Shown: one piece after another, positions 6,101 to 16,890 of the stretch
Layout of the letters: every line of letters begins with the position of its first letter
Numbering within the stretch: the first letter of the stretch is position 1
Assembly: GCF_004345245.1 (NCBI RefSeq)
Contig: NZ_SLUQ01000013.1
Location: forward strand, 62,001-126,000
Length of the DNA: 64,000 nucleotides
Source: Rhizobium sp. BK251
GTDB lineage: Bacteria > Pseudomonadota > Alphaproteobacteria > Rhizobiales > Rhizobiaceae
Direction: 5' to 3'
Notes under the pieces: model-generated
Database searches by the model: none
What the model was told of the DNA's origin: nothing
Seen by the model: only the letters and a program-made list of their open reading frames with translations
Translations under genes and position numbers: made by a program

Positions 6101-6688
6101 ATGCCGCACCGTGACCTGACCATTCTTGTCATCGATGAGAACGCGATCCGTGCCTCGATCATCGAGGAGGGTCTGCGCGAGGCCGGCCACGGCAACGTCA
6201 CTGTTATCCACGAGGTCCATGGCGTCGCGCGCATCATCGACACACTGCGCCCCGACGTCATCGTCATCGATATCGAAAACCCGAACCGCGACATGATGGA
6301 GCATCTGTTCCAGCTGACGCGGACGGTCGGGCGGCCGATCGCCATGTTCGTCGACCGCTCCGATACGGCCTCGATCGAGGCCGCTGTAGAAGCGGGCGTC
6401 TCGGCCTATATCGTCGACGGACTGAAGAAGGAGCGGGTGAAGCCGATCCTCGACATGGCCGTCAGCCGCTTCAACGCTTTCAGCCGCCTTCAGCGCGAAC
6501 TCGCCGACGCCAAGTCGGCGCTGGAGGAGAGAAAGGTGATCGAGCGCGCCAAAGGCATCTTGATGAAGTTGCGCGGCCTTTCCGAAGAGGAAGCCTTCGC
6601 GCTGCTTCGCCAGACCGCGATGAACGAGAAGAAGAAGATGTCCGACATCGCGCAGAGCGTCGTAACAGCAGCAGGGCTGCTGATGTGA
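6101..6688 (+). CDS. nasT: NasT: ANTAR-domain antiterminator of nitrate/nitrite assimilation
   Basis: A 195-residue two-domain protein. Residues 1-125 form a receiver-like domain (TILVIDEN at the start; Asp57 in VIVIDIEN at the phosphoacceptor position) and about 133-190 form an ANTAR RNA-binding domain (VIERAKGILMKLRGLSEEEAF...MSDIA). In the NasST family, NasS holds NasT inactive until nitrate or nitrite binds, then NasT binds a two-hairpin leader RNA and prevents termination. The nasS-like gene follows directly and a candidate target leader lies before nrtA. Start chosen at 6101, the first ATG giving the conserved N-terminus; its ribosome site is weak. Divergent from the esterase. Confidence 0.9.
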   Translation: MPHRDLTILVIDENAIRASIIEEGLREAGHGNVTVIHEVHGVARIIDTLRPDVIVIDIENPNRDMMEHLFQLTRTVGRPIAMFVDRSDTASIEAAVEAGVSAYIVDGLKKERVKPILDMAVSRFNAFSRLQRELADAKSALEERKVIERAKGILMKLRGLSEEEAFALLRQTAMNEKKKMSDIAQSVVTAAGLLM

Positions 6689-6728: not shown

Positions 6729-8012
6729 GTGGATATGACGATGAGCAGCAGCACCTCAGGAAGCAACCTCGCCTCCTCGTCCCGTCTTGCGGGAGAGGGA
6801 TCGAAGGTACTGCGCGCCGGCTTCATTCCCCTTGTCGATGCCTCGGTGCTGATCGCCGCTGCAGAATTCGGCTTTGCCCGTAAGGAAGGATTGACGCTCG
6901 ATCTCGTCAAGGACGTCTCCTGGGCCAATGTCCGCGACCGGCTCGCCTTCCGCCAGTTCGACATCGCTCACATGCTCTCGCCGATGCCGGTCGCCTCGAT
7001 GCTCGGCCTCGGCTCCAACCCCTCGCCGACCATCACACCCTTCTCGCTCGGGCGTGGCGGCAATGCCATCACGCTCTCGACACGGCTTTATGCCCGGATG
7101 CAGGAGGAAGGCAAACTGGCCGAAACGGCGAGCGCAATGGAAAGTGCCCGCGCCCTTGCCAAAGTCGCGCGCAGCATGCGCCAGCACGGCGAGCCTTTGC
7201 TTACGCTCGGCATGACCTACCCCTTCTCGTCCCACAACTACGAATTCCGCTACTGGCTCGCTGCCGGCGGCATCGATCCGGACGGGGACGTCAAGCTCGT
7301 GGTCGTCCCTCCGCCCTTGACCTCGGACGCGCTCGCGGCAGGTGCGATAGACGGTTTCTGCGTCGGCGCGCCGTGGAACATGGTCGCCTCCGAGCGCGGC
7401 GTCGGCCGCATCGTCGCTACCAAGCAGGATATCTGGCCCTCCGCACCGGAGAAGGTGATCGGCATGCGGCCCGAATGGGCGGAAGCCAATGCGGAGACCG
7501 TCTCGCGCCTGATCGTCGCGCTCGATGCCGCCGCCCGCTGGTGCGATCGCCCGGACAACCATGATGCTCTCGCTGAGGTGCTTGCCGAGGCAAGGTATAT
7601 TTCCGCGCCAGTCGAGATCATTCGTCGCGTCCTGGCGGGAGAGTTCAGCCTCGACGCCAAGGGTAACCGTCGCATCATCGACAACTACTTCACCTTCCAT
7701 TCCGGCTTTGCGAACTATCCGCGGCCGAGCCAGGCGCTCTGGATCTACAGCCAGATGATCCGCTGGGGGCAGAGCACTTTCTCCCCGGCGTCCATGCAGG
7801 CCGCCGCATCTGCGTTTCGTCCCGACCTCTACCGCGCTGCGCTTGGCGCCGATGCCGCGCCCTCGGATGATGACGTCCGCATCGAAGGTGCGGCCGATGG
7901 CGACCATTTCATGGACGGCCACGTCTTCGTTCCGTCGCAGATGCAGGGCTATGTCGAGGGTTTCGAGGTCAGAACCCGCGAGCGGACATCCTCCCCAGGC
8001 GACGATTTCTAG
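6729..8012 (+). CDS. nasS: NasS: cytoplasmic nitrate/nitrite sensor (NrtA/CmpA-like)
   Basis: A 427-residue periplasmic-binding-protein-fold protein of the NrtA/CmpA family (VLRAGFIPLVDASVLIAAAEFG; FDIAHMLSPMPVAS; FRYWLAAGGIDPDGD). Unlike the paralogue at 8380 it has no signal peptide or twin-arginine motif, only a Ser-rich N-terminus, which points to a cytoplasmic sensor and not a transport protein. Its position directly after nasT supports the NasS assignment. GTG at 6729 is preceded by GGAGG at 6716-6720; ATG codons at 6735 and 6741 are alternatives. It probably sequesters NasT when nitrate is absent. Confidence 0.87.
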   Translation: MDMTMSSSTSGSNLASSSRLAGEGSKVLRAGFIPLVDASVLIAAAEFGFARKEGLTLDLVKDVSWANVRDRLAFRQFDIAHMLSPMPVASMLGLGSNPSPTITPFSLGRGGNAITLSTRLYARMQEEGKLAETASAMESARALAKVARSMRQHGEPLLTLGMTYPFSSHNYEFRYWLAAGGIDPDGDVKLVVVPPPLTSDALAAGAIDGFCVGAPWNMVASERGVGRIVATKQDIWPSAPEKVIGMRPEWAEANAETVSRLIVALDAAARWCDRPDNHDALAEVLAEARYISAPVEIIRRVLAGEFSLDAKGNRRIIDNYFTFHSGFANYPRPSQALWIYSQMIRWGQSTFSPASMQAAASAFRPDLYRAALGADAAPSDDDVRIEGAADGDHFMDGHVFVPSQMQGYVEGFEVRTRERTSSPGDDF

Positions 8013-8180
8013 CCTCGTTGCAGGCAGGCCGCTGCTCAGATTTCACGCATCGCAATTTGCTGCGCCGCAAGCAAAAGCACAAAATATCACCACACAGGCC
8101 AATTGCCCTGAATATGTGCACCCTCACATTTCATCTGTTTTTCCGATAAATTTCAATTACCTAAATAAACGAATGCAATC
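8013..8180. other. Intergenic region upstream of the sigma-54 promoter
   Basis: AT-richer non-coding stretch between nasS and the sigma-54 core promoter. It would have to hold the NtrC-type enhancer. I see one TGTGCACC at 8115-8122, resembling half of an NtrC site and about 90 bases before the predicted transcription start, and an imperfect inverted repeat TTGC/GCAA near 8056-8071. No full NtrC palindrome is obvious by eye. Confidence 0.3.
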
Positions 8181-8196
8181 TGGCACGCCGCTTGCG
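8181..8196 (+). promoter_or_regulatory. Sigma-54 (RpoN) promoter of the nrt-nir-nas operon
   Basis: TGGCACGCCGCTTGCG matches the -24/-12 consensus TGGCACG-N4-TTGC, with GG (8182-8183) and GC (8194-8195) separated by exactly 10 bases as sigma-54 requires. Predicted transcription start is about 8207. Sigma-54/NtrC control ties nitrate assimilation to nitrogen limitation, as known for Klebsiella nas genes. It lies 184 bases upstream of the nrtA start. Confidence 0.85.
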
Positions 8197-8206
8197 TGGC
8201 TATTTG

Positions 8207-8340
8207 CGCTGCGGTCAACGGCGACCGGGGCGAAGCCGAACGCGCGATAAGCGTTCGCAAGAGACATCGACGTCGCAAGGTTTTTGCTGTCCGGGATTCC
8301 TCCTTATCCCGCAGACGCAAATCCCGAGCGGCGTTTTTTT
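8207..8340 (+). promoter_or_regulatory. Candidate NasT (ANTAR) antitermination leader
   Basis: The predicted untranslated leader begins with hairpin P1: stem CGGTC (8212-8216) / GACCG (8223-8227) and hexaloop AACGGC with A at position 1 and G at position 4, the ANTAR recognition rule. A second hexaloop ATCGAC (8266-8271), also A1/G4, is closed by GAC/GTC (8263-8265/8272-8274), with a further G-C pair beyond a mismatch. Between them lies a 7-bp hairpin CGAACGC/GCGTTCG (8237-8257). The intrinsic terminator at 8286-8340 follows. P1 is convincing; P2 is short and does not visibly overlap the terminator arm, so the exact switch is uncertain. Confidence 0.65.
8286..8340 (+). terminator. Intrinsic terminator in the nrtA leader
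   Basis: Left arm GCTGT-C-CGGGATT (8286-8298) pairs with AATCCCG-A-GCGGC (8320-8332), giving about 12 pairs with one internal mismatch and two G-U pairs, followed by seven T residues at 8334-8340. An alternative stem CGGGAT/ATCCCG (8292-8311 region) would disrupt it. It ends 39 bases before the nrtA start codon, the placement expected of a regulated leader terminator. Confidence 0.75.
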
Positions 8341-8379: not shown

Positions 8380-9678
8380 ATGAACAAGATTTCGACGAGC
8401 GGCATCACCCGTCGCGGCATGCTGAAGACGACCGCCACAGCCGCTCTGATCGGTGCCATCCGCACCGCATTCCCCTCCGGCGCCTTCGCTGCCTCGGCCG
8501 GTCCCGAAGTCACCGGTGCCAAGCTCGGTTTCATCGCCCTGACGGATGCCGCGCCGCTTGTCGTCGCGAAGGAGAAGGGCCTCTTCGAAAAGCATGGCCT
8601 GCCGGAGGTCGAAGTGCTGAAGCAGGCCTCCTGGGGTGCAACGCGCGACAACCTGGTCCTCGGCGGCGCATCGAACGGCATTGACGGCGCCCATATCCTC
8701 TCGCCCCTGCCCTATCTGATGGAGACGGGCAAGGTCACCCAGAACAACCAGCCGGTGCCGATGGCAATCCTCGCCCGCCTGAACTACGACAGCCAGGGCA
8801 TCTCGGTCGCCAAGGAATACGCCGACACCGGCGTCGAGCTCGATTCCTCCAAGCTTAAGGCCGCCTTCGAGAAGAAGAAGGCGGACGGCAAGGAGGTGAA
8901 GGCCGCCATGACCTTCCCGGGCGGCACCCATGATCTCTGGATCCGCTACTGGCTCGCCGCCGGCGGCATCGACCCTGACAAGGACGTTTCGACCATCGTC
9001 GTGCCACCGCCGCAGATGGTCGCGAACATGAAGGTCGGCAACATGGACGTCTTCTGTGTCGGCGAACCCTGGAACGAGCAGCTCGTCAACCAAGGCATCG
9101 GCTTCACTGCGGCGACAACAGGCGAGCTCTGGAAGGGCCATCCCGAAAAGGCGCTCGGCATGCGGGCCGACTGGATCGAGAAGAACCCGAACGCCGCCAA
9201 GGCGCTCCTGATGGCCGTGATGGAAGCCCAGCAATGGTGCGAGAGCATGGACAACAAGGAGGAGATGTCGGCCATTCTCGGCAAGCGTCAGTGGTTCAAC
9301 GTGCCGCCGAAGGACGTGCTCGGCCGCCTGAAGGGCGACATCAACTACGGCAACGGCCGAGAGGCAAAGGGCACCGACCTCTACATGAAGTTCTGGGCCG
9401 GAGGTGTCTCCTACCCCTTCAAGAGCCACGACACCTGGTTCATCGCCGAGAACATCCGTTGGGGCAAGTTCGCGCCCGATACCGACATCAAGTCGCTGGT
9501 CGACAAGGTCAACCGCGAGGATATCTGGCGCGAGGCCGCCAAGGAACTCGGCGTTGCAGCGGCCGATATCCCGGCATCGTCCTCCCGCGGCAAGGAGACC
9601 TTCTTCGACGGCAAGGTCTTCGATCCGGAAAATCCTTCCGCCTATCTCGATAGCCTCGCGATCAAGGCCGCATCCTGA
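8380..9678 (+). CDS. nrtA: Nitrate ABC transporter substrate-binding protein NrtA
   Basis: A 432-residue NrtA/CmpA-family binding protein, paralogous to the NasS gene upstream. The N-terminus MNKISTSGITRRGMLKTT has a twin-arginine motif followed by a hydrophobic stretch to about residue 38, so it should be exported by Tat and bind nitrate/nitrite in the periplasm. Conserved blocks include FIALTDAAPLVVAKEKGLF and RYWLAAGGIDPDKD. Start at 8380 is supported by AGAGGGAA; an in-frame ATG at 8341 abuts the terminator T-run and would spoil the signal peptide. A terminator-like hairpin separates it from nrtB. Confidence 0.9.
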   Translation: MNKISTSGITRRGMLKTTATAALIGAIRTAFPSGAFAASAGPEVTGAKLGFIALTDAAPLVVAKEKGLFEKHGLPEVEVLKQASWGATRDNLVLGGASNGIDGAHILSPLPYLMETGKVTQNNQPVPMAILARLNYDSQGISVAKEYADTGVELDSSKLKAAFEKKKADGKEVKAAMTFPGGTHDLWIRYWLAAGGIDPDKDVSTIVVPPPQMVANMKVGNMDVFCVGEPWNEQLVNQGIGFTAATTGELWKGHPEKALGMRADWIEKNPNAAKALLMAVMEAQQWCESMDNKEEMSAILGKRQWFNVPPKDVLGRLKGDINYGNGREAKGTDLYMKFWAGGVSYPFKSHDTWFIAENIRWGKFAPDTDIKSLVDKVNREDIWREAAKELGVAAADIPASSSRGKETFFDGKVFDPENPSAYLDSLAIKAAS

Positions 9679-9737: not shown

Positions 9738-10628
9738 ATGTCCGCCCTGGCCAAGAATAAAACCCTACCGGCGAAGATTGCGCCGAAAGCCGCAAACGTC
9801 GTCCGCCTTGCAAGACAGCCGGCGCGCCGGATCGATGTCCACAACCTTGCCATGTCCGCTGCACGCAACGTCGTTCCGCCGCTGGTGGTCCTCGCGATCC
9901 TTCTTGCAGTCTGGCAGGTGCTCTGTTCGTCGCCCACGGCCTCCCTGCCCTCGCCGCATCAGGTCTGGCAGGAGAGTTATGATCTGATCGCCTATCCCTT
10001 CTTCAACTATGGCTCGCAGGATATCGGCCTCGGCTGGCGCGTGCTGGTGTCGCTGCAGCGCGTCGCCTACGGCTTCGGTCTTGCCGCAGTCGCGGGCATC
10101 GTGATCGGCGCGGTCATCGGCCAATCGGTCTGGGCCATGCGCGGCCTCGACCCGATCTTCCAGGTGTTGCGCACAGTGCCGCCGCTCGCCTGGCTGCCGC
10201 TGTCGCTTGCCGCCTTCCAGGACTCGAATCCCTCGGCGATCTTCGTGATCTTCATCACCTCGGTCTGGCCGGTCATCATCAACACCGCCGTCGGCGTCCG
10301 GAATATCCCGCAGGACTACCGCAACGTCGCCCAGGTGCTGCGTCTCAACCAGATCGAATTCTTCTTCAAGATCATGCTGCCCTCGGCAGCCCCTTACATC
10401 TTCACCGGTCTTCGCATCGGCGTCGGCCTCTCCTGGCTCGCGATCGTTGCCGCCGAGATGCTGACGGGCGGCGTCGGCATCGGCTTCTTCATCTGGGATG
10501 CGTGGAACTCGTCGCGCCTGCCCGACATCATCGTGGCCCTTGCCTATATCGGCGTCGTCGGTTTCGCCCTCGACAAGCTGGTGGCGGCCATCGGCAAGCT
10601 CGTCACCCGCGGCGCTTCGGCCAATTGA
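9738..10628 (+). CDS. nrtB: Nitrate ABC transporter permease NrtB
   Basis: A 296-residue inner-membrane permease of the BPD_transp_1 family. A long basic cytoplasmic N-terminus (about 1-45) is followed by hydrophobic segments starting VVPPLVVLAILLAVWQVL, and the loop EFFFKIMLPSAAPYIFTGLRIGVG (about 205-230) contains the EAA-type contact with the ATPase. It would form the nitrate channel with NrtC. GAGGAG precedes the ATG and nrtC begins 11 bases after the stop, in one operon with nrtA. Confidence 0.9.
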   Translation: MSALAKNKTLPAKIAPKAANVVRLARQPARRIDVHNLAMSAARNVVPPLVVLAILLAVWQVLCSSPTASLPSPHQVWQESYDLIAYPFFNYGSQDIGLGWRVLVSLQRVAYGFGLAAVAGIVIGAVIGQSVWAMRGLDPIFQVLRTVPPLAWLPLSLAAFQDSNPSAIFVIFITSVWPVIINTAVGVRNIPQDYRNVAQVLRLNQIEFFFKIMLPSAAPYIFTGLRIGVGLSWLAIVAAEMLTGGVGIGFFIWDAWNSSRLPDIIVALAYIGVVGFALDKLVAAIGKLVTRGASAN

Positions 10629-10639
10629 GGGGATCCATC

Positions 10640-11437
10640 ATGACCGCCTATCTGAAACTCGACCATATCGACAAATACTTCGACCGGGCAGGAACGCGCG
10701 CCGAGGTGCTGAAAGGCATCAGCCTGACGATCGACAAGGGCGAATTCGTCTCGATCATCGGCCATTCCGGCTGCGGCAAGTCCACCCTGCTGAACCTGAT
10801 CGCCGGCCTGACGCCGGTCTCGGCTGGAGCCGTCCTGCTGGAAAACCGGGAGGTCAACGCACCAGGCCCCGAACGCGCCGTCGTTTTCCAGAACCACAGC
10901 CTGCTGCCGTGGCTGACAGTCTATGAAAACGTCAATCTCGCCGTATCCAAGGTCTTCAGCGGCTCCAAGACGAAGTCCGAACGCCACGATTGGGTCATGA
11001 CTAATCTCGATCTCGTCCAGATGGCGCACGCCAAGGACAAGCGCCCTGCCGAAATCTCCGGCGGCATGAAGCAGCGCGTCGGCATCGCCCGTGCGCTGTC
11101 GATGGAGCCGAAGATCCTGCTGCTCGACGAACCTTTTGGCGCGCTCGACGCCCTCACCCGCGCCCACCTGCAGGATGCCGTGATGGAGATCCACGCCCGC
11201 CTCGGCAACACGATGGTGATGATCACCCACGATGTCGACGAGGCCGTGCTGCTCTCCGATCGCATCGTGATGATGACCAACGGCCCGGCCGCGAAGATCG
11301 GCGAGGTCCTCGATGTGCCGATCGCAAGGCCGCGCAATCGCATCGAGCTCGCCTCCGACCGCACCTACCTCAAATGCCGCGAGGCCGTGTTGAAGTTCCT
11401 CTACGAACGCCACCGCTTCGTCGAAGCCGCGGAGTAA
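10640..11437 (+). CDS. nrtC: Nitrate ABC transporter ATP-binding protein NrtC
   Basis: A 265-residue ATPase with Walker A GHSGCGKST near residue 45, signature ISGGMKQRVGIARAL, Walker B LLLDEPFGALDALTR and the switch histidine in MITHDVDEAV. It is of NrtD/SsuB length and lacks the C-terminal binding-protein domain that cyanobacterial NrtC carries. It energises NrtB for nitrate uptake. The ATG at 10640 follows GAGGGGATC. nirB starts four bases after its stop. Confidence 0.9.
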   Translation: MTAYLKLDHIDKYFDRAGTRAEVLKGISLTIDKGEFVSIIGHSGCGKSTLLNLIAGLTPVSAGAVLLENREVNAPGPERAVVFQNHSLLPWLTVYENVNLAVSKVFSGSKTKSERHDWVMTNLDLVQMAHAKDKRPAEISGGMKQRVGIARALSMEPKILLLDEPFGALDALTRAHLQDAVMEIHARLGNTMVMITHDVDEAVLLSDRIVMMTNGPAAKIGEVLDVPIARPRNRIELASDRTYLKCREAVLKFLYERHRFVEAAE

Positions 11438-11441
11438 GACC

Positions 11442-13892
11442 ATGACCGAAAAACTCGTCATCATCGGCAATGGCATGGCGCCGGGGCGCATGCTGGAACA
11501 CCTCTTCGAGAAGGCGCCCGGCCAGTACCAGGTCACGATCTTCAACGCTGAGCCGCGCGTCAACTACGACCGCATCATGCTTTCGCCGGTTCTGTCAGGC
11601 GAAAAGACCTACGAGCAGATCGTCATCCACGGCGACGGCTGGTACATCGATAACGGCATCACGCTCTACAAGGGCCACAAGATCGTCGCGATCGACCGGC
11701 ACGCGAAGACCGTGACATCGGATCACGGCGTCACCGAAAGCTACGACAAGCTCGTGATCGCCACCGGCTCCGTGCCCTTCATCATTCCGGTTCCCGGCAA
11801 GGACCTGCCCGGCGTCATCACCTACCGCGACCTTGACGACGTCCAGGCCATGCTGCTGGCCGCCCAGTCGCGCGAAAAGGCGATTGTCATCGGCGGCGGC
11901 CTGCTCGGCCTCGAAGCCGCGGCCGGCCTTGCCCAACGTGGCATGGACGTGACCGTGCTGCATGTCATGCCGACGCTGATGGAGCGACAGCTCGATCCGG
12001 CTGCCGGCTATCTGCTGCAGAAGGCGGTCGAAGAGCGTGGCATCAAGGTCATCACCAAGGCCAATACCAAGGCGATCGTCGGCAATGGCAAGGTCGAGGG
12101 CATCGAGCTCGATGATGGCCGCATGATCCCGGCGACGCTTGTCGTCATGGCCGTCGGCATCCGCCCCAATGTCGGACTCGCCAAGGAAGCCGGCATCGCC
12201 GTCAACCGCGGCATCGTCGTCGATGCGGGCATGCAGACCTCGGACGGCAGCATCATGGCTCTCGGCGAATGCGCCGAAGTAGGCGGACAGGTCTATGGCC
12301 TTGTAGCGCCGCTCTATGAAATGGCCCGCGTTGCCGCCTCGCATCTCTCCGGCGAGGCATCCGCCGCCTTCGTCCATTCGGACACGCCGACCAAGCTGAA
12401 GGTCACGGGCATCGAGCTCTACTCGCTCGGCGATTTCGCCGATGGCGACGACCGCGAGGAGATCGTGCTTCGCGATGCGACAGCCGGCGTCTACAAGCGC
12501 CTCGTGCTCAAGGACAACCGGATCATCGGCACCGTGCTCTACGGCGAGACGGCCGATGGCGCCTGGTTCAACGATCTCAAGAAGAAGGCGACCGATATCT
12601 CACAGATGCGCGAGACGCTGATCTTCGGACAGGCCTACCAGGGAGGGTCTCCGCTGGACCCTATGGCGGCCGTTGCAGCCTTGCCGGATGATGCGGAAAT
12701 CTGCGGCTGCAACGGCGTCTGCAAGGGCAAGATCACCTCGACGATTTCGGGCAAGGGCCTGACGTCGCTGGACGACGTGCGCGCCCACACCAAGGCATCC
12801 GCCTCCTGCGGCTCCTGCACCGGCCTCGTCGAACAGCTGATGGCGCTGACGCTCGGCGATACCTATAACCCCAAGGCCGTGCAGCCGATGTGCAACTGCA
12901 GCGAGCTCGGCCATGACGACGTGCGCCGCCTGATCAAGGCCAAAGGTCTGAAGACCATCCCCGCGGTCATGCAGGAACTCGAGTGGAAGACCTCCTGCGG
13001 CTGCGCCAAATGTCGCCCGGCACTGAACTATTACCTCGTCTGCGACTGGCCGGACGAATATGCCGACGACTACCAGTCGCGCTTCATCAACGAGCGTGTC
13101 CACGCCAACATCCAGAAGGACGGCACCTATTCGGTCGTGCCGCGCATGTGGGGCGGCGTCACCAACTCCAGCGAACTGCGCGCCATCGCCGATGTCGTCG
13201 ACAAGTTCGAAATCCCTATGGTGAAGGTGACGGGCGGACAGCGCATCGACCTCCTCGGCATCGAGAAGGAAGACCTGCCGGCCGTCTGGGCCGATCTCGG
13301 CAAGGCGGGCTTCGTCTCCGGCCAGGCCTATGCCAAGGGCCTGCGTACCGTAAAGACCTGCGTCGGCTCCGACTGGTGCCGCTTCGGCACACAGGATTCG
13401 ACCGGCCTCGGCATCCGCATCGAAAAGTTCATGTGGGGTTCCTGGACGCCGGCGAAGCTGAAGATGGCGGTGTCGGGTTGTCCGCGAAACTGCGCCGAAG
13501 CCACCTGCAAGGACATCGGCGTCATATGTGTGGACTCAGGCTTCGAGATCCATTTCGCGGGTGCCGCGGGCCTCGATATCAAGGGCACTGAAGTGCTCGG
13601 CCTCGTGAAGACCGAAGACGAGGCGCTCGAGCATATCGTGGCGCTGACCCAGATGTATCGCGAACAGGGGCGCTATCTCGAGCGCATCTACAAATGGGCC
13701 AAACGCATCGGCCTCGACGAAATCCGCCGGCAGATCATGGAGGATACGGAAAAGCGCCAAGCCTACTACGAGCGTTTCGTCTTCTCCCAGAAATTCGCCC
13801 AGGTCGATCCCTGGTCGGAGCGCGTCTCCGGCAAAGACAAGCATGAGTTCAAGCCGATGGCGACCGTCGGTTACCCGCAGGCCGCTGAGTAA
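11442..13892 (+). CDS. nirB: NADH-dependent assimilatory nitrite reductase large subunit
   Basis: An 816-residue cytoplasmic flavoprotein with domains in the NirB order. It has an FAD/NAD(P) oxidoreductase (about 1-400; IIGNGMAPGRMLEHL, VIGGGLLGLEAAAGLA), BFD-type [2Fe-2S] cysteine clusters (CGCNGVC...CGSC and CNCSELG...CGCAKC, about 420-530) and the sulfite/nitrite reductase core. The siroheme-[4Fe-4S] ligands are in CVGSDWC and GCPRNCAEATC. It reduces nitrite to ammonium with NADH. It sits between nrtC and nirD, and the operon also supplies cysG for siroheme synthesis. Confidence 0.95.
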   Translation: MTEKLVIIGNGMAPGRMLEHLFEKAPGQYQVTIFNAEPRVNYDRIMLSPVLSGEKTYEQIVIHGDGWYIDNGITLYKGHKIVAIDRHAKTVTSDHGVTESYDKLVIATGSVPFIIPVPGKDLPGVITYRDLDDVQAMLLAAQSREKAIVIGGGLLGLEAAAGLAQRGMDVTVLHVMPTLMERQLDPAAGYLLQKAVEERGIKVITKANTKAIVGNGKVEGIELDDGRMIPATLVVMAVGIRPNVGLAKEAGIAVNRGIVVDAGMQTSDGSIMALGECAEVGGQVYGLVAPLYEMARVAASHLSGEASAAFVHSDTPTKLKVTGIELYSLGDFADGDDREEIVLRDATAGVYKRLVLKDNRIIGTVLYGETADGAWFNDLKKKATDISQMRETLIFGQAYQGGSPLDPMAAVAALPDDAEICGCNGVCKGKITSTISGKGLTSLDDVRAHTKASASCGSCTGLVEQLMALTLGDTYNPKAVQPMCNCSELGHDDVRRLIKAKGLKTIPAVMQELEWKTSCGCAKCRPALNYYLVCDWPDEYADDYQSRFINERVHANIQKDGTYSVVPRMWGGVTNSSELRAIADVVDKFEIPMVKVTGGQRIDLLGIEKEDLPAVWADLGKAGFVSGQAYAKGLRTVKTCVGSDWCRFGTQDSTGLGIRIEKFMWGSWTPAKLKMAVSGCPRNCAEATCKDIGVICVDSGFEIHFAGAAGLDIKGTEVLGLVKTEDEALEHIVALTQMYREQGRYLERIYKWAKRIGLDEIRRQIMEDTEKRQAYYERFVFSQKFAQVDPWSERVSGKDKHEFKPMATVGYPQAAE

Positions 13893-14235: not shown

Positions 14236-16890
14236 ATGGGGAGCGAGGTCAAGACAACCTGCCCCTATTGCGGCGTCGGCTGCGGCATCATCGCCAAGGT
14301 AGCTGACGATGGAGCTGTCAGCGTCAGGGGAGACCCGGAGCATCCGGCCAATTTCGGCCGGCTCTGTTCAAAGGGTTCTGCGCTCGCCGAAACCATCGAT
14401 CTGGACGGCCGGCTGATCCACCCGGAAATCGGCGGCCGGCGCGCCGGCTGGGACGAAGCGCTCGATCTCGTGGCGCGGAAATTTTCGGAGACAATCGCAG
14501 AGCACGGTCCGGATTCGGTCGCCTTCTATGTTTCAGGACAGCTCCTGACCGAGGACTACTATGTCGCCAACAAGCTGATGAAGGGCTTCATCGGCTCGGC
14601 CAATATCGACACCAATTCGCGGCTCTGCATGTCATCCTCCGTCGCCGGCCATCGCCGCGCCTTCGGCTCCGACACGGTGCCCGGTACCTACGAGGATATC
14701 GAGCTTGCCGATCTCGTCATCCTCACCGGGTCGAACCTCGCCTGGTGCCATCCGGTGATCTACCAGCGTCTTGCGGCCGCAAAGGCAGCAAGGCCGGATA
14801 TGAAGATCGTCGTCATCGATCCGCGCCGGACGATGACATGCGATATCGCCGACCTGCATCTGGCGATCCGTCCGGATGGAGACGTCGCCCTGTTCATGGG
14901 TCTTCTGGCCCATCTCGCAACCAGTAACGCTATCGAACAGAACTTCGTTGCCCGGCACACGAACGGCTTCGCCGAGGCCTTCCTTGCAGCGTCCTCGCTC
15001 AGTGCCGGCGACCTCCTCGAGCAGACAGGCGTTCCGGTCGCGCAACTGCGGGAGTTCTACCGCCTGTTCGAGACCACGGAAAAGGTCGTGACCTGCTACA
15101 GCCAGGGCGTCAACCAGTCCTCCTCCGGTACCGACAAGGTCAACGCCATCATCAACTGCCACCTGGCAACCGGGCGCCTCGGCCGCCCCGGCATGGGGCC
15201 TTTCTCGCTGACCGGCCAGCCGAACGCCATGGGCGGCCGTGAGGTCGGCGGGCTTGCCAACATGCTCGCCGCCCATATGGCGATCGAAAATCCTGAAGAT
15301 CGCAACCGCGTGCAGCGCTTCTGGGCCTCACCCGGGATCACGCCGAAGCCGGGGCTGAAGGCGGTGGACATGTTCCGCGCCGTTGCCGACGGGCGCATCA
15401 AGGCGCTCTGGATCATGGCCACCAATCCCGTCGTCTCTATGCCCGATGCGAATGCTGTCGAGGCGGCGATTGCCGCCTGTCCCTTCGTCGTCGTCTCCGA
15501 TGTTCTCAAGGAAACCGACACGGCCCGCCACGCCCATGTTCTCCTCCCCTCGCTCGGCTGGGGCGAGAAGGACGGCACGGTCACCAATTCCGAGCGGCGC
15601 ATCTCCCGCCAGCGCCCGTTTCTTGGCCCACCCGGCGAAGCGAGGGCCGATTGGTGGCAGCTTGCCCAGGTCGCACGGCGAATGGGCTTTACCGGCTTCG
15701 ACTACCGCAACGCGGCAGACATCTTCGCCGAACACGCCGCGCTTTCGGCCTTCGAGAACAGCGGCAGCCGCGATTTTGACATCGGCGCACACGCTGAGGT
15801 CGACGGCGACGCCTACGACGCGATGAAACCTTTCCAATGGCCGCAGCCGGCAGGCACCGGGCCTCGCCTGACCCGCTTCTTTGCTGAAGGCCGTTTCTAT
15901 CACGCTGATCGCAGGGCGCGCTTCATCCCCGTCCAGGCCGCCGCCACGGATCGCACCAGCTCCGCCTACCCATTCACGCTGAACACCGGCCGTATCCGCG
16001 ACCACTGGCACACCATGACCCGGACCGGAAAGAGCGCCCGCCTCTCCGGCCATATCGCCGAACCCTTTGCCGAAATCCACCCGCGCGACGCCATGGAGCT
16101 TGGCATTCGAGGCGCAAGCCTCGTGGAACTCGAAAGTCCGCATGGCACCGCTGTCGTGCGGGCGCTTGTCACCGAGCGGCAGATGCCGGGCAACATCTTC
16201 GTGCCGATGCACTGGAACGACCAGTTCGCGGCGCAGGCCCGCATCGACGCACTCGTCGCGCCCGTTACCGATCCATTCTCGGGCCAGCCCGCTTCCAAGA
16301 ATGTCGCGGTCGCCGCCCGCAGACTTGAAGTTTCGCTTTATGGCTTTGCCGTCTCGTCTCAAAAACCCGTCGCAACAGATTCTACTTATTGGGCTCTTGC
16401 CCGCGCCGAAGGCGGCTGGCGGGTCGAGCTGGCCTTCAAGGAACCAGTCGAAGATTGGACGGACTGGTGCCGCGAAACCTTCTCAATCCCGCCGACGATC
16501 GAGCCCTTAGGCTATGCCGATCACCAGTCCGGCGACCTGCGGCTTGCCTTCTTCGACGGCGAAAAATTGCTCGCAGTACTTTTTCTCGCACGCGAGCCGG
16601 TGGCCGTTGCCCGCAACTGGGCAATCGGCCAACTCACCGCCGAACATTCCGACCTGCGCAAGCGCTTCGCGATCGTTGCCGGCAGGCCAGGTGCCGACAA
16701 GCCGGATCCGGGCGCCACCGTCTGCTCCTGCTACGGCGTCGGTTCAAACCAGATCCTTGCCGCCGTGCGCAATGGCTGCCGCAGCGTCGAAGCCGTCGGC
16801 AGGGAAACCAGTGCCGGCACCAATTGCGGCTCCTGCCGTGCCGAGATCAGGGGGATCATCGATGGATGTCTTGCTGCAGCCGCGGAATGA
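14236..16890 (+). CDS. nasA: Assimilatory nitrate reductase catalytic subunit
   Basis: An 884-residue molybdopterin (bis-MGD) oxidoreductase. The N-terminal [4Fe-4S] motif CPYCGVGCG...C lies at residues 9-45, followed by the Mo-pterin domains (VSGQLLTEDYYVANKLMKGFIGS; LCMSSSVAGH) and a C-terminal molydopterin-dinucleotide-binding region with LNTGRIRDHWHTMTRTGKS. The last about 60 residues carry a BFD-like [2Fe-2S] segment (CSCYGVG...NCGSCRAEI), as in Klebsiella NasA. No signal peptide, so cytoplasmic: nitrate to nitrite for NirBD. The ATG follows the nirD stop without a gap and has little of a ribosome site, suggesting coupling. Confidence 0.93.
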   Translation: MGSEVKTTCPYCGVGCGIIAKVADDGAVSVRGDPEHPANFGRLCSKGSALAETIDLDGRLIHPEIGGRRAGWDEALDLVARKFSETIAEHGPDSVAFYVSGQLLTEDYYVANKLMKGFIGSANIDTNSRLCMSSSVAGHRRAFGSDTVPGTYEDIELADLVILTGSNLAWCHPVIYQRLAAAKAARPDMKIVVIDPRRTMTCDIADLHLAIRPDGDVALFMGLLAHLATSNAIEQNFVARHTNGFAEAFLAASSLSAGDLLEQTGVPVAQLREFYRLFETTEKVVTCYSQGVNQSSSGTDKVNAIINCHLATGRLGRPGMGPFSLTGQPNAMGGREVGGLANMLAAHMAIENPEDRNRVQRFWASPGITPKPGLKAVDMFRAVADGRIKALWIMATNPVVSMPDANAVEAAIAACPFVVVSDVLKETDTARHAHVLLPSLGWGEKDGTVTNSERRISRQRPFLGPPGEARADWWQLAQVARRMGFTGFDYRNAADIFAEHAALSAFENSGSRDFDIGAHAEVDGDAYDAMKPFQWPQPAGTGPRLTRFFAEGRFYHADRRARFIPVQAAATDRTSSAYPFTLNTGRIRDHWHTMTRTGKSARLSGHIAEPFAEIHPRDAMELGIRGASLVELESPHGTAVVRALVTERQMPGNIFVPMHWNDQFAAQARIDALVAPVTDPFSGQPASKNVAVAARRLEVSLYGFAVSSQKPVATDSTYWALARAEGGWRVELAFKEPVEDWTDWCRETFSIPPTIEPLGYADHQSGDLRLAFFDGEKLLAVLFLAREPVAVARNWAIGQLTAEHSDLRKRFAIVAGRPGADKPDPGATVCSCYGVGSNQILAAVRNGCRSVEAVGRETSAGTNCGSCRAEIRGIIDGCLAAAAE

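Follow-up and report, generated by a model that had tools for sequence, protein, structure and literature searches.

A conserved third hairpin between the two recognition hairpins of a probable NasT-responsive leader in Rhizobium sp. BK251

How an ANTAR dimer makes use of two hexaloops is unsettled: in the EutV structure one loop is bound at a time, yet the length of the linker between the hairpins is critical. A natural leader family with loops 45-54 nt apart that are bridged by a conserved hairpin would allow a direct test of this question. Such a leader lies in front of nrtA in the stretch of Rhizobium sp. BK251 that was analysed (64,000 nucleotides, in the following called the window). An original prediction had described a sigma-54 promoter, an ANTAR-type leader and a terminator at this site, and had left a 7-bp hairpin between the two recognition hairpins unexplained. 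What is this hairpin, and how could a switch operate across it?

The nitrate locus and its promoter

The locus contains the genes nasT, nasS, nrtA, nrtB, nrtC and nirB and the genes for a molybdopterin enzyme and a siroheme synthase, in this order, and a gap of 367 bases separates nasS from nrtA. The annotated genes are:

6101..6688, + strand: nasT, response-regulator receiver domain and ANTAR RNA-binding domain (Pfam ANTAR, E 3.1e-22; Response_reg, E 1.5e-9)
6729..8012, + strand: nasS, CmpA/NrtA-like (Pfam NMT1_2, E 1.4e-72)
8380..9678, + strand: nrtA, nitrate-binding protein (Pfam NMT1_2, E 6.1e-108)
9738..10628, + strand: nrtB, nitrate ABC transporter permease (TIGR01183, 308.8 bits, cut-off 209)
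10640..11437, + strand: nrtC, nitrate ABC transporter ATPase (TIGR01184, 340 bits, cut-off 292; start chosen by the analyst)
11442..13892, + strand: nirB, nitrite reductase large subunit (TIGR02374, 889.9 bits, cut-off 578)
14236..16890, + strand: molybdopterin enzyme (Fdh-alpha, 490.6 bits, cut-off 666; NasC NF047855, 440.9 bits, cut-off 1100)

As predicted, a pair of nasT and nasS is situated just upstream of the transporter genes; the two genes adjoin each other beside the nitrate genes, one encoding a receiver-ANTAR protein and the other an NrtA-like protein. Homology and gene position suggest that the product of nasS is the nitrate sensor. All family matches of the molybdopterin enzyme stayed below their cut-offs, and it is regarded as the assimilatory nitrate reductase because of its genomic place. 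The nearest named relatives of nrtA, among the best 80 of 549 relatives, were from Rhizobium. All promoter and leader elements lie within the gap between nasS and nrtA, and positions 8181-8340 probably regulate the operon that comprises nrtABC, nirB and the nitrate reductase gene. The source genome had two ANTAR matches. The second ANTAR protein (L121, G000:C9:299046-299204) has, by eye, an AmiC-AmiR-like arrangement, with a periplasmic-binding-protein-like gene and permease-like genes as neighbours.

The following elements belong to the putative initiation region:

8033..8049, + strand: possible NtrC-like dyad TGCTCAGATTTCACGCA, degenerate in the window, under the block TGCaCAaa......GC that is conserved in relatives
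8076..8092, + strand: possible second NtrC-like site AGCACAAAATATCACCA, under the conserved block GC.cAAa
8181..8195, + strand: sigma-54 type -24/-12 promoter TGGCACGCCGCTTGC, GG-N10-GC with TGGCAC and TTGC

The promoter TGGCACG-N4-TTGC of the original prediction is present with the exact GG-N10-GC spacing. It was matched in all 80 loci compared (the best 80 of the 549 nrtA relatives), in each case 184-322 bases 5′ of the matched nrtA start, and the transcription start is expected near 8206-8208. One rpoN gene of the source genome scored above the curated cut-off, and so did one ntrC gene among 84 receiver or NtrC-like matches. In relatives, two conserved blocks that resemble NtrC sites are found about 150 and about 100 bases 5′ of the promoter. 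Three NtrC patterns were tried on 75 upstream regions and were found in 43, 13 and none of them, the last being the pattern of PMC5424462. Since the window copies of both blocks are poor and the published pattern was found in 0/75 regions, we only infer that NtrC controls the operon.

The hexaloop hairpins and the terminator

Downstream of the promoter the following RNA elements were recognized:

8212..8227, + strand: hairpin H1 (P1), stem CGGTC/GACCG, hexaloop AACGGC with A1 and G4
8237..8257, + strand: hairpin H2, stem CGAACGC/GCGTTCG of 7 bp, 7-nt loop GCGATAA, no A1/G4 hexaloop
8263..8274, + strand: hairpin H3 (P2), the antiterminator hairpin, stem GAC/GTC, hexaloop ATCGAC with A1 and G4
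8269..8340, + strand: intrinsic terminator, 5′ arm 8269-8276 overlapping P2, 3′ arm 8328-8335, T tract 8334-8340

Both predicted hexaloop hairpins were thus recovered, and their conservation was analyzed in 74 loci, i.e., the best 80 of the 549 nrtA relatives minus six from Mesorhizobium. The P2 hexaloop with A1, G4 and a stem of at least 3 bp was present in all 74 loci and the P1 hexaloop with A1 and G4 in all except L038 (73 loci). In 73/73 loci that have P1, its loop starts 20-22 bases past the -12 GC, and the loop-to-loop distance between P1 and P2 is 45-54 nt. An alignment of 45 Rhizobiaceae-type leaders with pairwise identities below 90% (A1) showed compensatory changes in six of the nine P1 pairs, with a mean pair probability of 0.96. 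The predicted fold lengthens P1 by pairing of 8207-8210 with 8229-8232.

For P2, 3-4 bp had been predicted; it has 3 bp in the window, and a fourth pair exists in 10 of the 45 rows (nine C-G, one U-G). Covariation, by which the original prediction was to be checked, was thus evident for P1 and missing in this alignment for P2, where three pairs are invariant and none of the four showed compensatory changes. Since its bases are also needed for the terminator, P2 is constrained in its variation, and due to its invariance the alignment is uninformative on P2. Between families the P2 pairs do change in step (gac/gtc, ggc/gcc, agc/gct). In a shuffle control of the hairpin pairing none of 500 shuffles reached any of five measures, and slid structures scored far lower. 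When RNAalifold was applied to A1 with no structure supplied, it drew P1, H2 and the terminator, and P2 was absent. Twenty-four further matches aligned with model R1 had compensatory changes in six of nine P1 pairs and six of seven H2 pairs, whereby the alignment was fitted to the model and three of the 24 rows are also contained in A1.

The predicted terminator ends with seven Ts at 8334-8340, directly after GCGGCG. Its base helix is 99.5% paired in the 45 leaders and contains two pairs in which both partners changed; the inner helix has eight such pairs, and 79% of its cells are paired. In the respective control 1/500 shuffles reached one measure and 0/500 the other four. In L073 a change in the P2 loop and terminator 5′ arm is matched by a change in the 3′ arm. 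A simple terminator scan restricted to loops of 3-8 found none on the + strand. The fold of the window leader was better than all but one of 200 shuffles (z -3.3). When folding of the growing transcript was simulated, P1 and H2 formed first. P2 was part of the minimum-energy fold at 8277, 8284 and 8320 and absent at 8300, and by 8332 the terminator had displaced it. Terminator and P2 therefore overlap and exclude one another. To impose P2 on the complete leader requires 6.9 kcal/mol, and thus P2 needs help to form.

The published dual-hexaloop motif consists of a pair of hairpins, each with a stem of 3 bp or longer and a hexaloop that has A1 and G4, connected by a variable linker (PMC3369931), and the window leader has two such stems and loops. 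It resembles in this respect the eut leaders of EutV, the nasF leader of NasR and the amiE leader of AmiR, in which the second of two such hairpins is exclusive with an intrinsic terminator (PMC3369931, PMC8934654). Taken together, the region 8181-8340 very probably contains an ANTAR-type leader that acts by antitermination. Conservation and covariation bear out the predicted combination of sigma-54 promoter, leader and terminator beside nasT-nasS.

The promoter motif alone occurs in the window at the expected frequency (11 matches with at most two mismatches, 10.3 expected; not significant), which would fit a leader pattern that arose by chance at an ordinary terminator downstream of nasS. 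Rules were defined that required a P2 hexaloop overlapped by a terminator arm and another hexaloop with a stem of at least 5 bp. They were satisfied in 33 of 70 first stretches, in contrast to one of 70 reversed and none of 70 shuffled controls. Register, loops and pairing are kept across many genera, and the conservation of the promoter, the covariation of the hairpins and the pairing of the terminator already contradict a chance origin, which is exceedingly improbable.

The conservation of H1 also bears on the question whether NasT needs the H3 hexaloop only, so that H1 and H2 would be stability or mRNA-protection elements. The EutV dimer has indeed been reported to contact a single hexaloop at a time (PMC8934654). 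However, the A1/G4 hexaloop of H1 is kept in all but one of the 74 loci on a covarying stem, and in Paracoccus the first hairpin was required, mutation of this hairpin (HI) severely lowering nasA expression (PMC5424462). A use of H3 alone is thus very unlikely.

The NasT of the window matched Rv1626 (1s8n, 1.5e-22), EutV (6wsh, 9.6e-20) and NasR (4akk, 1.4e-11). According to the analyst's mapping from the alignment, the residues that face R142, K149, E160 and M172 of EutV are identical, and the residue facing Y164, which in EutV stacks on G4 (PMC8934654), is a Phe in the window and in the Rhizobium-type NasT compared. It is a Tyr in the other 11 NasT proteins compared (three from Mesorhizobium, L153-L158, L162 and L163). 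The residue is not strictly linked to the layout of the leader, Leisingera having hexaloops far apart and yet a Tyr. In Brucella cytisi (L009) the three-hairpin leader is kept, although nasT contains stops and has lost its frame and the nasS row diverges strongly.

The middle hairpin and the length of the linker

H2 was found to be under selection, because six of its seven pairs showed compensatory changes in the 45 leaders. Its mean pair probability is 0.85 and exceeds 0.5 in 41 of the 45 rows. A stem of at least 5 bp was present in 78 of 84 distinct leaders, compared with 20% of shuffles; L046 and L048 have 3 bp by the rule and, by eye, a 5-bp stem with a longer loop. H2 is therefore no oddity; it is a real and conserved third element that defines a distinct leader layout. 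It was rejected as an ANTAR hairpin of its own, as its usual loop has 7 nt (GNNATAA type) and is not an A1/G4 hexaloop, an ATAGGC reading being possible in some leaders only.

Between the P1 core and P2 there are 35 nt in the window. Over the 84 distinct leaders this distance ranges from 31 to 40 nt, and 72 of them fall within 32-34 nt. The leaders of Enterococcus faecalis eut have linkers of 5-12 nt (PMC3369931), a short length that lies outside the published motif definition, in contrast to the 31-40 nt with a covarying hairpin in the Rhizobium-type leaders. Due to its long linker with the interposed H2, the window leader is a variant and not the canonical form, as the original prediction had suspected. 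Eut linkers of 3 or 14 nt were reported by Ramesh et al. to lower induction drastically (PMC3369931), and 20 extra nucleotides abolished EutV antitermination in vitro according to Walshe et al. (PMC8934654). From these results an unfolded linker of about 33 nt would be expected not to work, and read literally the EutV limit would forbid this leader.

Because longer linkers lower or abolish antitermination by EutV, H2 is proposed to be a folded spacer between H1 and H3, a reading that we favor with some caution. In the window H2 uses about 21 of the 35 linker nucleotides and leaves an open path of 14 nt between H1 and H3, or 9 nt if the outer P1 pairs form. Over all 84 leaders the open linker with H2 folded is 10-23 nt (median 12) and at most 14 nt in 62 of them, and fewer nucleotides are open where the outer P1 pairs form. 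Folding of H2 would thus bring the open path near to the range of the Enterococcus eut linkers. The remaining 22 leaders retain 15-23 open nucleotides even with H2 folded, which argues against transferring a strict spacer rule from EutV. The near-constant total length counts against a free spacer, as that would not need such constancy.

The position of H2 between both recognition hairpins and the near-constant total length would also be compatible with a role in transcriptional pausing, in which H2 would stall RNA polymerase and give NasT time to occupy H1 ahead of the synthesis of P2 and the terminator. However, by eye no conserved U tract follows H2 on its 3′ side in alignment A1, and leaders with a short layout manage without a hairpin between their hexaloops. 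A role in pausing is therefore improbable. The spacer reading predicts that the switch would be lost when H2 is unfolded but would survive its removal.

Several features of the proposed switch have precedents. Antitermination by NasST is reportedly combined with general nitrogen control in Azotobacter. In Paracoccus, NasT binds the nasA leader RNA and is sequestered by NasS until released by nitrate or nitrite (PMC3795266), and a combination with NtrBC control has been described (PMC3795266, PMC5424462). This combination is thus already known and not itself new. The locus of Paracoccus denitrificans resembles that of the window in having nasTS just 5′ of the operon, a non-coding leader region of about 200 bp and antitermination; the binding of NasT to the leader and the NtrBC control described there are transferred to the window by analogy. 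Unlike the window leader, that of P. denitrificans has two hairpins, HI and HII, and the accounts of it, as far as available, mention no interposed hairpin; they report an NtrC site at nasT and identify none at nasA (PMC5424462, PMC3795266).

Based on the known NasT and ANTAR systems, the following course of events can be proposed. When nitrogen is limiting, NtrC would activate the sigma-54 RNA polymerase, which would start near 8207. Without nitrate, NasS would hold NasT and the transcript would stop at the terminator (8269-8340). Nitrate or nitrite would free NasT, which would load on H1 as it emerges from the polymerase. NasT would then hold the weak 3-bp H3, the 3′ strand of which is part of the terminator 5′ arm, so that the terminator would be blocked and the operon read through. 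This overall reading, i.e., initiation by NtrC and sigma-54, nitrate-responsive NasST antitermination and H2 as a folded spacer, is probable. Many species of Rhizobium, Agrobacterium and Neorhizobium are likely to control nitrate assimilation by a common NasT switch of this kind.

Leader layouts in related bacteria

The Mesorhizobium-type leaders (L055, L067, L068, L070, L080, L081) share with the window the kind of promoter, nrtA downstream and a terminator that overlaps P2. Unlike in the window, their hexaloop hairpins are only 3 nt apart, with a loop-to-loop distance of 19 nt. For Bradyrhizobium diazoefficiens, another rhizobial relative with NasT antitermination, nosR is cited as shown and hairpins are predicted for nirA and coxS, and the account of them, as far as consulted, describes no three-hairpin layout (PMC6759348). 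The only curated Rfam family nearby is narK (RF03032), to which the window scored 21.5 bits, below the gathering score of 43.2. Its consensus shares with the window the GGCAC...TTGC block, an AACGG-loop hairpin and CGAC-AAAGAC-GTCG, and differs by a short linker without H2. As the consensus opens with GGCAC...TTGC, the model appears to include a sigma-54 promoter, which would lie outside the transcript. Searches based on short linkers seem to miss real leaders, as the narK model does here at its gathering score. Among 14 weak narK matches in the source genome, the best-scoring one, L112, was rejected because it is contained in a long open frame (5′-nucleotidase-like by eye) and because the control was positive in 13 of 14 genomes. 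A match to the P11 sRNA (10.2 bits, gathering score 70) was due to chance.

In the openly accessible papers and passages covered, neither an interposed hairpin nor a study of this Rhizobium leader was found. This speaks weakly for the novelty of the layout with the interposed H2, whereas NasST antitermination is known. The layout is unforeseen by current models of ANTAR switches.

NasS was searched in 297 genomes of the order (142 matched at E 1e-60) and 385 genomes of the class (63 at 1e-50). The rules given above were applied to 112 stretches, i.e., 99 behind nasS (L164-L262, including the window) and 13 others, and a leader was found in 51. With a classifier that considered hexaloops at 15-30 and 38-58 nt only, 34 of the 51 leaders had a near hexaloop only (loop-to-loop 18-29 nt), 11, including the window, a far hexaloop only (41-54 nt), and six had both, i.e., hexaloops on three hairpins. 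The linker between hexaloop hairpins is 0-8 nt in most of the alphaproteobacterial leaders found, compared with 31-40 nt in the Rhizobium type. An earlier gap-free scan had revealed no linker of 11-26 nt among the at most two candidates shown per locus. The leaders L208, L211, L223, L180, L184 and L225 carry A1/G4 hexaloops on three successive hairpins and might be triple-hexaloop ANTAR targets.

These layouts raise the possibility that H2 is a relic. It would once have been a canonical P1, would have lost the A1/G4 loop when recognition passed to the upstream hairpin, and would have retained its stem only to prevent misfolding with the terminator. H2 is indeed placed as the canonical first hairpin is elsewhere (loop-to-loop 18-23 nt in most short-layout leaders, 22 nt here), and H1 as the further hexaloop hairpin of the six triple leaders (45-52 nt). 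Against it stand the compensatory changes in the H2 stem, and a mere relic is rather unlikely. It is compatible with the spacer reading, as H2 could be a relic in origin and a spacer in use.

Outside the Rhizobium group the far layout was found in L200, L218, L232, L235, L240, L246 and L162 (Leisingera). In these seven leaders the middle hairpin is weak (shuffle share 0.05-0.26) and in L246 there is none; H2 is therefore well proved only in the Rhizobium group. In a tree of 39 NasS rows one group (100/100) united the Rhizobium-type rows with f184 and f213, except for L009, which was placed outside on a very long branch. The other far-layout rows were located elsewhere, and well-supported branches force at least three layout changes, the positions of the long-branched L009, L162 and L246 being unsure. 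L165 and L166 fall within the Rhizobium NasS group and have a short-layout P1-P2 behind a Rhizobium-type first half, which suggests that a single NasS lineage can have either layout. It is tempting to speculate that alphaproteobacterial NasT leaders share a three-hairpin frame with hexaloops on hairpins 2 and 3 with a short linker, on 1 and 3 as in the window, where hairpin 2 would be the folded spacer, or on all three, that the ANTAR protein reads the geometry through space rather than the length of the linker, and that the layout was switched within the same NasST lineage. The first-position plain hairpins of short-layout leaders are rarely significant singly (shuffle share 0.00-0.84), and therefore the common frame is kept as a tentative reading.

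With strict filters model R1 detected the leader in 34 of the 199 family genomes and in 19 of 109 genera, once per genome except for one genome with two; in the source genome the locus at 8181-8340 was the single copy. A class-wide search for the promoter plus CAAYGG matched in 115 of 385 genomes; the matches were mostly chance-like and were left uncounted. Behind nasTS of Sinorhizobium meliloti, Paracoccus versutus, Novosphingobium, Niveispirillum, Azospirillum and Caballeronia nothing passed the leader rules, the classifier having been run on the Paracoccus and Novosphingobium stretches only. In S. meliloti 1021 (pSymB, L152) neither a leader nor nrt genes follow nasTS, and the targets of its NasT must therefore lie elsewhere; the regulation of nitrate assimilation in this species is reported as unknown (PMC6616083).

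Several leaders looked rearranged. In a Sinorhizobium fredii plasmid (L160, 5611-5746) the leader is kept in front of an apparent 3′ part of nrtC, and nrtA and nrtB seem by eye to be absent. L165 and L166, from the same genus, appear composite, with a Rhizobium-type P1 and an H2-like stretch in the first approximately 130 bases past the promoter and then P1, P2 and terminator of the Mesorhizobium type; in L166 the next gene is, by eye, MFS-type transporter-like. In L167 an apparently shortened nrtA is followed by a remnant resembling a second NasT leader and by a transporter-like gene, an arrangement that looks by eye as if nrt had been replaced.
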